Assembly (NCBI GenBank): GCA_015296075.1
Contig: DVDV01000200.1
Coordinates: 1 to 58,723, forward strand
From: Leptolyngbyaceae cyanobacterium M33_DOE_097
GTDB lineage: Bacteria > Cyanobacteriota > Cyanobacteriia > Leptolyngbyales > Leptolyngbyaceae
Reading direction: 5' to 3'
Length of the DNA stretch: 58,723 nucleotides
Made by a program: the position numbers and the translations under genes. This document shows, piece after piece, positions 23,270 through 28,928 of this stretch (positions are counted from its first letter, which is position 1; every line of letters begins with the position of its first letter). The notes beneath the pieces are model-generated. The model saw only the letters and a list, made by a program, of their open reading frames with translations. It searched no databases and had not been told where the DNA came from.

Positions 23270-23657
23270 CTAGTCGTTCAGGAGTTTGATTGCTTTTTCC
23301 TTGATTTTTCTTACCATCTCTTCAATGCGGACTCAGTTCGCCATTGTTGCCTGGGTAAGAGGTCTTGCAAGCGTGAACACGTTGGTTTGCTGGTGTCTGA
23401 GTTGTCCTCACGATTCTGCTATCGCGGATTCAAACCGCTGGCTAGTGTGATTCGGCAGCAACAGATTATGTTACCCAGTCCCTTGAAGGTGTTATTTAAT
23501 CTTATCGGTTACATTCGACATACAACTTAATAACTGGCCTAACCCCTCTTCTCAGCATCCAGATTCAAACTTAAGCTGTCTGGTATCACATTTAACTCAA
23601 CTTTTATCAGTTTATTTGGTAAGAATAAGTCCAAGCTCAGTTCATTCGGTTTATCCC
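23270..23657. other. Gene-free stretch
   Basis: About 390 bp between divergent DUF429 and GT25 genes. A GCGGATTCAAACCGC segment near 23424 recalls a tRNA T-arm, but no acceptor or anticodon arms can be built. Nothing else is recognised. It must hold promoters for both genes. Confidence 0.5.
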
Positions 23658-24377
23658 ATGAAGATCACTAGCTACTTTGAGCGCGTTTACATCATCAACC
23701 TGGCAGAGCGAAAAGATCGGCGCGATCAAATGGTTCGAGAACTAGAGAAGATTCAATTATCTCCATCAGCAGGGCTGGTTGAATTTTTCCCGGCAATTCG
23801 TCCTAGCTCGGCCGGAGAATTTCCTAGCATTGGGGCACGAGGATGCTTTATGAGCCACTTAGCTGTGCTTAAAAAAGCTCAGGCTGACGGTCTCAAAAAT
23901 ATCCTGATTCTCGAAGATGACTTGACTTTCTCAAAAGCATTTATCCAAAATCAGGCTGCTACCCTCCAACATTTGCAAATGACCTCGTGGGATTTTGTTT
24001 TCTTTGGGCACTCAGTTGATGTCCCTGATCAAAAACCTGTTGGTTTTATCCCTTTCCCCAGTCAGTCAACCATGACGTGCCTGCACTTCTATGGTGTTGA
24101 TCAAGCAATTTACAATCCGCTCATTGCCTTCCTCGACGAAGTCCTTCAGCGTCCAGCAGGTCATCCTTTAGGTGGAGCCATGCATCTCGATGGAGCCTAC
24201 AATGTTTTCCGCCACCAAAACCCTTATGTCAAAGCCCTGATTGCCGCTCCAAATCTTGGCTCTCAGCGTAGTTCGCGCAGCGATATCGCTCCGGCTAAGT
24301 GGTATGACCGCACACCTGGCATTCAAGAACTCGCTGGTTTTGCGCGATCGGCAAAAGCGCTTTTAGCAGGCGCGTAA
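23658..24377 (+). CDS. Family 25 glycosyltransferase
   Basis: GT25 enzymes transfer sugars, typically galactose or glucose, onto lipooligosaccharide or protein acceptors. The 239-residue product shows the family signatures: VYIINLAERKDRRDQM at the N-terminus, IGARGCFMSHLAVLKKA, and the metal-binding NILILEDDLTFS. The ATG at 23658 is chosen because it directly precedes the conserved strand; the frame is open 14 codons further upstream. A terminator follows the gene, making it monocistronic. With two GT2 genes elsewhere in the window it may act on surface glycans, but the acceptor is unknown. Confidence 0.88.
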   Translation: MKITSYFERVYIINLAERKDRRDQMVRELEKIQLSPSAGLVEFFPAIRPSSAGEFPSIGARGCFMSHLAVLKKAQADGLKNILILEDDLTFSKAFIQNQAATLQHLQMTSWDFVFFGHSVDVPDQKPVGFIPFPSQSTMTCLHFYGVDQAIYNPLIAFLDEVLQRPAGHPLGGAMHLDGAYNVFRHQNPYVKALIAAPNLGSQRSSRSDIAPAKWYDRTPGIQELAGFARSAKALLAGA

Positions 24378-24563: not shown

Positions 24564-24577
24564 GTATACTAATATAC
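24564..24577 (+). promoter_or_regulatory. NtcA-type site GTAN8TAC overlapping a -10 element
   Basis: GTA-TACTAATA-TAC exactly matches the consensus of NtcA, the cyanobacterial nitrogen regulator that responds to 2-oxoglutarate. The site includes TATACT (24565-24570), the likely -10, so bound NtcA should repress rather than activate. A transcript starting near 24578 would begin just before the glutamine aptamer. Repression under nitrogen shortage is inferred from position by analogy with gif genes. Confidence 0.65.
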
Positions 24578-24590
24578 AGACATAGGAGAA

Positions 24591-24679
24591 ATCGTTCATC
24601 TCTTTTGGTGCCAAAAGAAGACGGAAGTAGGGAGTTTTCCCGAAGGAACGCGCCTCTATCTCACCACGCTCAGGAGGCG
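24591..24679 (+). promoter_or_regulatory. Glutamine riboswitch (glnA RNA motif) with RBS-sequestering hairpin
   Basis: The leader shows the three-stem glnA aptamer: P1 CGTTC (24593-24597) with GAACG (24646-24650); P2 CTTTTGG/CCAAAAG (24602-24617); P3 GGGA/TCCC (24630-24641). The conserved GACGGAAGTAGG (24620-24631) and CGAAGGAACG (24641-24650) are present. Immediately after P1, CGCCTC (24651-24656) can pair with GAGGCG (24674-24679), which overlaps the AGGAGG Shine-Dalgarno at 24672-24677. Glutamine binding would compete with or release this hairpin. In known cyanobacterial cases glutamine raises expression. Confidence 0.9.
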
Positions 24680-24685
24680 AAATCT

Positions 24686-24931
24686 ATGAAACTAATGTAT
24701 CGGGGAGTCGCTTATGAATATTCTCCCTACACCGAAACAGTAACCAACGAGTCAACTGTGGCTCAAGTCTCTAGTCTTGAAAAGCAACCCGCTACTGAGT
24801 TGCATTATCGCGGGGCCGCTTACGTCACTCGCTTAGGCAAGCCATCCATCCACGAGTTGCTTTGCTACCCTATTCGTAGACTGTTGTATCGCGGCGCAAA
24901 CTACGATTTGCATCGTTGTGTACCCAACTAA
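24686..24931 (+). CDS. DUF4278 mini-protein under glutamine riboswitch
   Basis: An 81-residue basic protein with three copies of a short motif, MYRGVAY at residue 4, HYRGAAY near 43 and LYRGANY near 70, which defines DUF4278. AGGAGG lies eight bases before the ATG; the frame remains open through the riboswitch upstream, but that part is the RNA element. Its controls (an NtcA-type site over the -10 and a glutamine aptamer) are those expected of a protein made only when nitrogen is plentiful, as with the glutamine synthetase inactivating factor GifB. A role in damping nitrogen assimilation is inference; the biochemical activity of DUF4278 is not known to me. A strong terminator follows. Confidence 0.85.
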   Translation: MKLMYRGVAYEYSPYTETVTNESTVAQVSSLEKQPATELHYRGAAYVTRLGKPSIHELLCYPIRRLLYRGANYDLHRCVPN

Positions 24932-25002
24932 ACAAGTGTTCTTTAACGGCAGGTAAACAGGTATTCCTTGATCCGGCTGATTAGAGTTCTGATTCAGTGG
25001 AG

Positions 25003-25032
25003 AGTGGCATGAAGGATTTCATGCCACTTTTT
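25003..25032 (+). terminator. Rho-independent terminator after DUF4278 gene
   Basis: AGTGGCATGAA (25003-25013) and TTCATGCCACT (25018-25028) form a perfect 11-pair stem with a GGAT tetraloop, followed by a T-run on the plus strand. Confidence 0.92.
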
Positions 25033-25088: not shown

Positions 25089-25316
25089 CTAGTCATCATT
25101 CAGCATGACCAGTTTGTTTCTGCCTCCAGCACCCGATTTAATCGAGATACACGACTTCGGTAATTTAAACGTCTTCGACAAGAGTTGAATCAACTCTTCA
25201 TTCGCTTTGCCATCAATCGGTGGTGATTTGAGCTGCACAACCCAACTCCCATCCGCTTCTTCTCGAATCTCTTGCTTCCTGGCGTTTGGTTTGACCTTAA
25301 TTCTCAAAACTCTCAT
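25089..25316 (-). CDS. DUF167 (YggU family) protein
   Basis: A 75-residue protein with the full DUF167 pattern: RIKVKPNARKQEI, WVVQLKSPPIDGKANEELIQLLSKTF, SCISIKSGAGGRNKLV. The family has known structures but no established function. It begins with ATG at 25316 and lies about 100 bp beyond the chlN stop on the same strand, so it could be read through from the chl operon or have its own promoter. Its 3' end faces the strong terminator of the DUF4278 gene. Confidence 0.88.
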   Translation of the reverse strand: MRVLRIKVKPNARKQEIREEADGSWVVQLKSPPIDGKANEELIQLLSKTFKLPKSCISIKSGAGGRNKLVMLNDD

Positions 25317-25416: not shown

Positions 25417-27317
<1,901 letters not shown>

Positions 27318-27414: not shown

Positions 27415-28275
27415 TTAGACCATCATTAGATCTAACTCTTCTTCCCTAGCCTTCGGTTCTTTGGGATTGAGATAGAAGTCAGACAGCAAAGCAAACAGGT
27501 CGCGATCGGGTGAATCGTTGGGAACTACGCCTTCTGGGTTTGCCAAAATCTGGTCGGCAATATTGAGGTAATAATCACAAACATAGTTGAGTGACGGATC
27601 AGACTCTGCCATCTCAAATAGCGTCTTGCCTTTAACCCGCGATACCCGAATGTCTTCAATCAGCGGTAACACTTCTAGCACCGGCATGGGCACAGCTTCG
27701 ATGTACTTCTCAATCAAGTCACGCTTAGCCGTACGGTTGCCAATCAAACCAGCCAGACGCAGGGGGTGAGTCCGAGCTTTTTCGCGAACGGAAGCAGCAA
27801 TGCGATTAGCTGCGAACAAGGCGTCAAAACCGTTATCGGTCACAATCATGCAGTAGTCAGCGTAATTGAGCGGAGCCGCAAAGCCACCACAAACCACGTC
27901 ACCCAACACATCAAAAAGAATCACATCGTATTCATCAAACGCGTTGAGCTCTTTTAACAGCTTGACGGTTTCACCCACAACATAGCCACCACAACCAGCA
28001 CCCGCCGGAGGGCCACCCGCCTCAACGCAGTCAACCCCGCCGTAGCCTTTGTAGATCACATCTTCGGGCCAGACATCTTCGTAGTGATAGTCTTTGGCTT
28101 GCAACGTATCAATAATGGTTGGGATGAGAAACCCAGTCAAAGTAAACGTGCTGTCATGCTTGGGGTCACAGCCAATTTGCAACACTTTTTTGCCTCGGCG
28201 AGCAAGTGCAACCGAGATATTGCAACTGGTTGTCGATTTACCGATACCACCTTTTCCATACACGGCAAGTTTCAC
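27415..28275 (-). CDS. chlL: Light-independent protochlorophyllide reductase iron protein
   Basis: ChlL is the NifH-like ATP-dependent reductase that passes electrons to ChlN-ChlB. The 286-residue product has the P-loop GKGGIGKST near the N-terminus and the two cluster-ligating cysteines in [12 protein letters not shown] and [11 protein letters not shown]. The GTG at 28275 is the start: AGGAGG lies eight bases upstream (28284-28289) and the protein then begins [10 protein letters not shown] like its homologues. It is the first gene of chlL-DUF5331-chlN. The enzyme is oxygen sensitive and allows greening in the dark. Confidence 0.98.
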
Positions 28276-28928
28276 GTTGTTCGCCTCCTGAAGGCTGAAG
28301 TGCAAAGGATCGAAAAGTCAATTGGCGATCGCGCTGGGAGATTAGTTGGAGAGCCAAAAAAACGCACTTCGCTAACTGACTTGATGTTTGCCATTGTTGT
28401 CGATGAAGCCAGGAATGAAAAGGGGGCTAGAAAATGAAAAGCTGAGCAAATAAGACTAAATGGAAGCTGAGTTTCCTAAAAGAGGGCGGAACAGTCCAGA
28501 AAACCCAAGGGACAGCTATAAACCTCCAAGTCATTTTTTGTAATTTTGCTTTTATAGAAAGCAGAATAATTCAAAAATTACGAAATCCCTTTTCCAGCAA
28601 GGAGATTTGGCTTTAAGCATGCAGGTGGATGCTGCTAGCAGGGGCATTCACCTATGTAGCTGGAGGCAGCGGCGTTGAAGCGATTGCTCACTAACCTTGC
28701 AAAGCAGACTGAGCAAAGCTTTTGGTGCAATCAAATTGGAGCAAGTTGTGTGGCTTGACTCGACTTTTGATAAGAATCATCAATTTTTGGGTTTACACCT
28801 GGTAGAGCGCATTTATCTCTGCTGAATGTGGAGTTTTTACAGAGAAAGTTGGGTTTACCCATCTAAAAGCAGGCGCAAATTTGACCAGAGGTAGCAAAAA
28901 ACGTTGTTCAAGTCGTCTCTGCCTCTTT
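28276..28928. other. Upstream region of chlL, no gene seen
   Basis: About 650 bp before the MITE-like element. It must hold the chlL promoter, but no clear core elements were found. The frames at 28084-28437 are shadows of chlL and its leader. No RNA gene was recognised. Confidence 0.5.

Follow-up and report, generated by a model that had tools for sequence, protein, structure and literature searches.

The window analysed here, a stretch of 58,723 nucleotides forming contig C283 of a 6.96-Mb genome of a Leptolyngbya-like cyanobacterium assembled in 437 contigs, contains a short gene whose leader carries a glutamine riboswitch preceded by a putative NtcA binding site and whose product is an 81-residue protein made up of a DUF4278 module only. 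Comparison with related genomes indicates that this gene most probably goes back to a DUF4278-PirA fusion from which the PII-binding PirA half was lost, while the control region, the N-terminal module and the 3' end were kept. The riboswitch is well supported and the case for NtcA control comes from comparison; the gene variant is new, with a history that appears to be readable from the sequences. A sequence-only reading of the locus had described the leader and the small protein and had proposed, by analogy with gifB, a new small regulator of nitrogen assimilation. Our analysis confirms the observation and partly supports the interpretation; the probable ancestry of the gene was absent from that reading. 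The features of the locus and its surroundings are given in Table 1.

Table 1 Features of the riboswitch-DUF4278 locus and its neighbourhood, in positions of the window
Feature	Position	Strand	Basis and remarks
Glycosyltransferase-25 gene, 5' neighbour of the locus	23616-24377	+	Pfam
Perfect NtcA-type palindrome GTATACTAATATAC (GTAN8TAC)	24564-24577	+	Predicted site; sequence and conserved position; probably over the -10 (repressor position)
Type 1 glutamine riboswitch aptamer (glnA RNA)	24591-24654	+	RF01739, 52.7 bits (gathering score 35), model 1-53 of 53, E 9.5e-9 in the whole window
P1 stem of the aptamer	24593-24597 paired with 24646-24650		RNAfold
Start (TTG) of alternative longer frame	24605		108 aa
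Conserved aptamer box GACGGAAGTAGG	24620-24631		
Conserved aptamer box CGAAGGAACG	24641-24650		
Anti-Shine-Dalgarno strand	24651-24657	+	Directly 3' of the P1 3' strand; pairs with 24673-24679; first four bases within the Rfam match
Shine-Dalgarno GGAGG within GGAGGCG	24673-24679	+	Sequestered by 24651-24657
81-aa stand-alone DUF4278 protein	24686-24931	+	ATG 24686, stop 24929-24931, 81 codons; PF14105 39.2 bits (cut-off 25.3); three YRGxxY motifs; no IF7, no PirA
Conserved 3' UTR stretch TTAGAGTTCTGATTCAGTGGAG	24981-25002	+	18-nt core common to relatives
Terminator-like hairpin AGTGGCATGAA-GGAT-TTCATGCCACT with T-run	25003-25032	+	Sequence; not listed by the consensus terminator scan
DUF167 gene, 3' neighbour of the locus	25089-25316	-	Pfam
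Oxidored_nitro gene near the locus	25417-26940	-	Pfam; looks like chlN by our reading
Fer4_NifH gene near the locus	27415-28305	-	Pfam; looks like chlL by our reading

The glutamine aptamer proposed for the leader was borne out by a covariance-model search, in which RF01739 was matched over the full model well above its gathering score and was the sole Rfam match at gathering threshold in the whole window, with the conserved boxes named in the earlier reading both present. The leader fits the type 1 model, and no type 2 (downstream-peptide) glutamine riboswitch was found in the window by Rfam at the gathering threshold. Folding of the leader with RNAfold gave P1, P2- and P3-like stems together with a helix covering the Shine-Dalgarno sequence. 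Folding energy by itself was rejected as evidence because the leader scored no better than its shuffles (z -0.27), and the case for the riboswitch is therefore made by the covariance model and by comparison and not by stability.

The leader has an expression platform able to hide the ribosome binding site, as the CGCCTC that directly follows the P1 3' strand pairs with the GAGGCG around the Shine-Dalgarno sequence. Across the 68 riboswitch leaders found in related genomes (see below), all of the first six pairs of this hiding helix (G-U allowed) form in 61, against a mean of 0.56 and a maximum of 3 leaders in 200 shuffles of the sequence before the start, and the figure of 61 is on the low side since an incorrect start was used in scoring three leaders (L122, L126, L129); the remaining four of the seven failing leaders are L094, L100, L107 and L133 (five of the six pairs). 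The letters of the two strands change together, with CGCCTC/GAGGCG in 50 of the 68 leaders, CGCTTC/GGAGCG in 6, CGCCTT/GAGGCG in 3 and CGCTTC/GAAGCG in 2. In the predicted fold of the window leader the mean unpaired probability of the GGAGG is 0.05 without constraint, 2% when P1 is held and 16% when P1 is held with the base after P1 unpaired, a small effect by which the modelled fold alone would leave glutamine-driven opening unexplained. P1 and the hiding helix adjoin without overlap, so that the switching step is unexplained by pairing alone. Ren et al. 2015 (Cell Reports) are said to have described a capping G-C pair at the P1 base of the solved glutamine aptamer, which we take as a lead only.

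The second element of control claimed by the earlier reading was a perfect GTAN8TAC site over the -10. The site itself stands, its centre lying 20 nt upstream of the aptamer, and its position is conserved; the -10 is plausible only (TATACT or TAATAT within the site), and the promoter scan listed none. A single GTAN8TAC was rejected as evidence, as the window contains 3 against a mean of 4.17 in shuffles. When position is taken into account, a perfect site centred 12-31 nt before the aptamer was found in 50 of the 68 leaders and in 6 of 544 control bins, these being eight bins of equal width further upstream of each leader. Where the controlled gene is of DUF4278 type the site accompanies 47 of 57 leaders, and for other genes 3 of 11; by class, it accompanies 32 of 35 PirA fusions, 9 of 12 IF7 fusions and all five short genes. 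The site-bearing leaders are kin by descent and not 50 independent events, yet they contain 32 different 14-mers. The gifB gene of Synechocystis combines an NtcA site centred at -7.5 with a glutamine riboswitch (PMC6316151), and with the -10 placed inside the site the geometry in the window would by analogy be similar. The parallel with the double control of gifB drawn in the earlier reading holds in that the same order of elements occurs here and in 50 of the 68 leaders.

The ATG of the window gene is a better start than the TTG of the longer frame, having the GGAGG 9-13 nt upstream. The predicted protein of 81 residues (9.4 kDa, pI 9.0) carries the DUF4278 domain and the three YRGxxY motifs that had been read from its sequence, the former with a PF14105 score well over the cut-off. 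Neither PirA (NF050139) nor IF7 (NF052599) was detected in the protein, its sole NCBIfam listing being a chance match (E 0.14), and neither was found at the window locus in six-frame HMM searches. Truncation by sequencing error or decay was considered and is unsupported: six-frame HMM searches reading through stops show no PirA or IF7 at the window gene or at its four short relatives, and reading of the three forward frames downstream of the short genes revealed neither. AlphaFold2 models from alignments of 13 and 39 rows contain three YRG beta-hairpins at low confidence (pTM 0.26 and 0.27) and were not used as evidence, a Foldseek search of the window-protein model against PDB gave no credible match (best E 2.1), and no solved structure of a relative was found by sequence.

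The terminator-like hairpin and T-run downstream of the gene point to a transcript that probably contains this one gene. The 18-nt core of the 3' UTR stretch preceding it is identical in the relative of the same genus (G002, L110) and differs by 4 letters behind the short gene of G025 (L078) and by 3 behind an intact DUF4278-PirA fusion in G003 (L079); hairpins with altered stem letters occupy the same place in these three, and for the short genes of G014 and G024 a script comparison found no such core downstream. The whole stretch 24981-25032 is thus common to three relatives though the coding part differs, and it could be a terminator region or a small RNA derived from the 3' UTR.

In order to place the gene among its relatives, RF01739 was searched in 42 related genomes of one family, 36 of which were positive with a total of 68 places, the gathering score being exceeded at 63; these figures are lower bounds owing to stricter filters, and a further place in G032 (45.7 bits), before a PirA fusion, lies outside the counts. 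Assigned to classes by HMM places, 35 of the riboswitches precede DUF4278-PirA fusions, 12 precede DUF4278-IF7 (IF17/gifB) fusions, some of them cut or broken (G039, G010), and 5 precede module-only DUF4278 proteins of 73-81 aa, namely the window gene and four relatives, which together span three genera. The rest comprise 4 before DUF4278 proteins with a diverged end (L076, L080, L092, L115), 8 before an unnamed family of 139-145 aa, 3 before an unnamed family of 50-53 aa and 1 before a 59-aa tandem copy (G031). The one diverged-end protein that was tested, that of L076, is weakly IF7-like (19.2 bits, E 0.0011, below cut-off), and none of the four diverged-end genes has a perfect NtcA site in its promoter region.

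DUF4278-PirA fusions extend well beyond this family, with matches at E 1e-15 or better in 57 of the 373 genomes sampled across the phylum (21 family codes), and of the 61 matches 57 extend at least as far as residue 128 in a query of 133 residues. PirA was found in all ten fusion proteins tested from other families, in seven of them over the cut-off. Among 11 fusion loci from the phylum (L174-L184, with L182 from the window's own family, f1) a riboswitch over the cut-off was present in L174, L179 and L182 and a diverged one was recognised by eye in L183; the other seven show none, the leader having been read in 7 of the 11, so that fusions are not always linked to a riboswitch.

A profile of the five short proteins matched at E 1e-8 in 5 of 386 sampled phylum genomes, the window's own included, although this profile reaches close relatives only and divergent short forms could escape it, the sample holding few genomes of family f1. 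The other four matching genomes (G141, G414, G165, G230) belong to family f7, and their five places (L168-L172) encode triple-YRG DUF4278 proteins of 85-106 aa with no riboswitch match in the fetched loci. At L159 and L162 (Xenococcus) and at L166 (Thermosynechococcaceae), leaders recognised by eye as riboswitch-like are followed by shortened DUF4278 proteins, 107 and 74 aa long; these are IF7-like with incomplete ends and look like other routes of trimming the same kind of gene.

The origin of the short form was approached with a tree of 52 N-terminal modules over 75 columns, which left out L124, L132, L119 and L133 of the 56 DUF4278-type proteins; L123 was absent from the input through the ORF filter, and L122 was represented by a fragment lacking part of its N-terminus, a later start having been taken. 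A branch (91/78; 92% of 200 bootstrap trees) sets the five short proteins apart, and they belong to a set of 24 in which the remaining 19 members are PirA fusions of one type, type B (84/83), with neither of these branches starred in the tree. In AU tests a grouping of the short proteins with the type-A PirA fusions of their own genomes was weakly rejected (p 0.044) and a grouping with IF17 modules was not (p 0.278). The tree weakly favours a DUF4278-PirA origin. The second AU result is compatible with another origin, in which the short gene would be a shortened IF17 or would have started as a stand-alone DUF4278 gene and acquired a copied leader, and the window's own genome offers a supply of the latter with 18 DUF4278 places (17 above cut-off), the majority of them small stand-alone proteins. 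Against such an origin, which we hold to be rather unlikely, stand the placement of the short proteins beside the type-B fusions in the best tree and two further lines of evidence from gene order and the 3' UTR.

Downstream of the short gene of G025 lie genes that also follow type-B fusions, 4 of them shared with G033 and with G036 and 2 with G034 and with G037, at 41-72% identity; G024 shares genes upstream of the G025 short copy, and the genes around the intact G003 fusion are those that flank the fusions of G034 and G036. As the 3' UTR and terminator of three short genes (those of the window, G002 and G025) recur behind this intact G003 fusion, the two kinds of transcript agree at either end and it is the PirA part that is missing. 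The window gene and its G002 relative have only a DUF429 neighbour in common and no genes of the G025 or type-B locus, so their lineage has moved or been rearranged. Descent from a DUF4278-PirA fusion, the reading we prefer, involves the loss of PirA from one gene while others persist, and all five genomes with a short gene retain a riboswitch-linked type-A DUF4278-PirA gene (L016, L102, L106, L108, L109). A spare copy alone does not force the loss of PirA, since G029 and G030 each retain two intact fusions. Free pirA genes occur in the window's own genome (G000, C237) and in G002 (C23), G014, G024 and G025 (C127). G031 (L124, contig C100) has a tandem pair of glutamine riboswitches separated by 500 nt, both accompanied by an NtcA site; one leads into the 59-aa DUF4278 protein and the next into a DUF4278-PirA fusion, an arrangement that is possibly an intermediate of domain loss.

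The window's own genome illustrates how the module is distributed, as three riboswitches were found in it and all three lie upstream of DUF4278 genes: the window gene, an IF17-type gene on C326 combining DUF4278 with IF7 (80.9 bits, cut-off 70), and a gene on C216 combining DUF4278 with PirA (47.8 bits, E 9.9e-13, just below the NCBIfam cut-off of 50), the related G036 fusion scoring 55.0 for PirA. Six-frame HMM searches also located a free pirA (C237) and a gifA (C138). Small stand-alone DUF4278 paralogues (e.g. the FLG types on C380, C435, C11, C88, C116 and C393) lie away from the three riboswitch places, the DUF4278 family of this genome being much larger than its riboswitch-linked part.

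We consider it fairly probable that the window gene represents a one-gene nitrogen-excess module, derived from a DUF4278-PirA fusion and now acting alone through protein-protein contact by DUF4278. Under nitrogen shortage 2-oxoglutarate would be high and active NtcA would be bound, with no transcript made; under nitrogen excess NtcA would leave and the transcript would be produced, and with glutamine high the aptamer would fold, the hiding helix open and the ribosome site be freed for synthesis of the protein. The free module may then compete for, or associate with, whatever recognises DUF4278 in IF17 and in the remaining PirA fusion, setting a nitrogen-dependent life-time. That the module works alone by protein-protein contact is the least certain step and the partner step is a best guess. 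The review PMC6316151 states that the N-terminal 82 residues of IF17, covered by DUF4278, carry stability and confer it on IF7 when added, and that this part may be involved in nitrogen-dependent degradation of IF17; given this stability role, the simplest guess would be that a free DUF4278 copy acts on whatever partner recognises the module in IF17.

The main rival to a turnover role is that the short protein is itself an inhibitor, its DUF4278 module binding glutamine synthetase, PII or another enzyme directly. Small size, a basic character (pI 8.7-10.0 for the five proteins) and inferred co-production with IF17 would suit such a role, as would the statements in PMC6316151 that the N-terminal region of IF17 seems to improve inactivation and that PMM1846 of Prochlorococcus, for which an inhibitor-like role is considered there, resembles the inactivating factors. 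However, the locus contains no IF7 or PirA domain and the same text describes the N-terminal part of IF17 as one that the protein can do without, and we regard direct inhibition as possible but unlikely. Of the sequence-only reading, a regulator produced under nitrogen excess is kept as the best guess; a gifB-like role on glutamine synthetase does not follow because the protein is without IF7 and PirA domains. More doubtful is the idea that DUF4278 is a portable turnover tag of the nitrogen-excess response, joined in one gene to the glutamine synthetase inhibitor IF7 and in another to the PII ligand PirA, both under glutamine control, of which the window gene is a free decoy copy that saturates the degradation machinery; if this were true, glutamine would both make the inhibitors and prolong their life.

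That the gene is a functionless relic, a truncated DUF4278-PirA gene still transcribed on its way to loss, is very improbable, for although it has no PirA domain and each of the five genomes still holds another fusion linked to a riboswitch, short genes are retained in five genomes from three genera with riboswitch, NtcA-type site, hiding helix over the Shine-Dalgarno sequence and the three motifs intact, and 22 of the 83 columns in the alignment of their products are invariant. Three short-gene pairs gave dN/dS values of 0.12, 0.17 and 0.18, which lend weak support to constraint, since dS is 2.4-3.2, near or beyond saturation, and is undefined for pairs involving the window gene. The short gene of G024 has a grown loop between the strands of its hiding helix, its aptamer and ATG being spaced by 176 nt.

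Several known systems share part of this design. The gifB/IF17 gene of Synechocystis sp. PCC 6803, which is repressed by NtcA and has a type 1 glutamine riboswitch, shows the same order of NtcA site, glutamine aptamer, ATG and DUF4278 N-terminus (PMC6316151), but the window protein is without the IF7-type C-terminal domain that inactivates glutamine synthetase, and a separate IF17-type gene is present in the genome. PMC11288750 counts DUF4278 homologues as gifB, a rule by which the window gene would be miscounted as gifB. PirA (Ssr0692) is, like the window gene (by prediction here), an NtcA-repressed small protein of nitrogen excess, and the DUF4278-PirA fusions are the nearest relatives of the window gene by tree, gene order and 3' UTR; unlike PirA and its N-extended forms, the window protein has no PirA domain. 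In PMC8092223 'DUF' is absent from the main text and 'riboswitch' appears once, in a cited title, while the question of whether N-extended PirA is real or a false annotation is left open and its function is called elusive. Our comparison argues that N-extended PirA is real and that the extension is DUF4278, as indicated by the 35 of 68 riboswitches and the 57 of 373 phylum genomes described above. In the window's family the PII-arginine branch would then share a glutamine sensor with the brake on glutamine synthetase.

PMM1846 of Prochlorococcus MED4 also resembles the window gene, being by the description in the review PMC6316151 a small stand-alone DUF4278 protein (7 kDa) whose gene combines a glutamine riboswitch and an NtcA motif. 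It differs in that the aptamer here is type 1, whereas those of marine picocyanobacteria are type 2 (PMC6316151), and in the type-B fusion ancestry proposed here. Glutamine aptamers of cyanobacteria are, according to the same review, mainly associated with DUF4278 genes, and the link of riboswitch and DUF4278, repression by NtcA and a small doubly controlled DUF4278 protein are already published there. What is added here is the ancestry. No statement that the PirA extension is DUF4278, that genes of this kind have the glutamine riboswitch or that there are module-only derivatives was found in the searched literature, as far as its available text goes; Klahn et al. 2018 (NAR) lies outside that search and may list some of the genes. 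The module-only genes constitute a natural test of DUF4278 acting by itself.

Two unnamed families also follow glutamine riboswitches in the relatives. Members of the 50-53-aa family begin MKRFN or MKQFN (L094 in G030:C24, L100 in G029:C103, L107 in G008:C49), all three having a promoter site one letter off GTAN8TAC, and the one member tested gave no Pfam or NCBIfam match. The 139-145-aa family (L083, L087, L091 and L126-L130) lies at G011:C1:4650219, G012:C30, G028:C75, G038:C84, G034:C19, G033:C105, G035:C44 and G039:C613, and the two members tested (L087, L126) gave no convincing Pfam or NCBIfam match. Its proteins end in YDPxTGQxxYxESE...WLEE, and in five of the eight cases (L126-L130) the same strand encodes, approximately 0.5 kb upstream, a PirA-like domain scoring below the NCBIfam cut-off.
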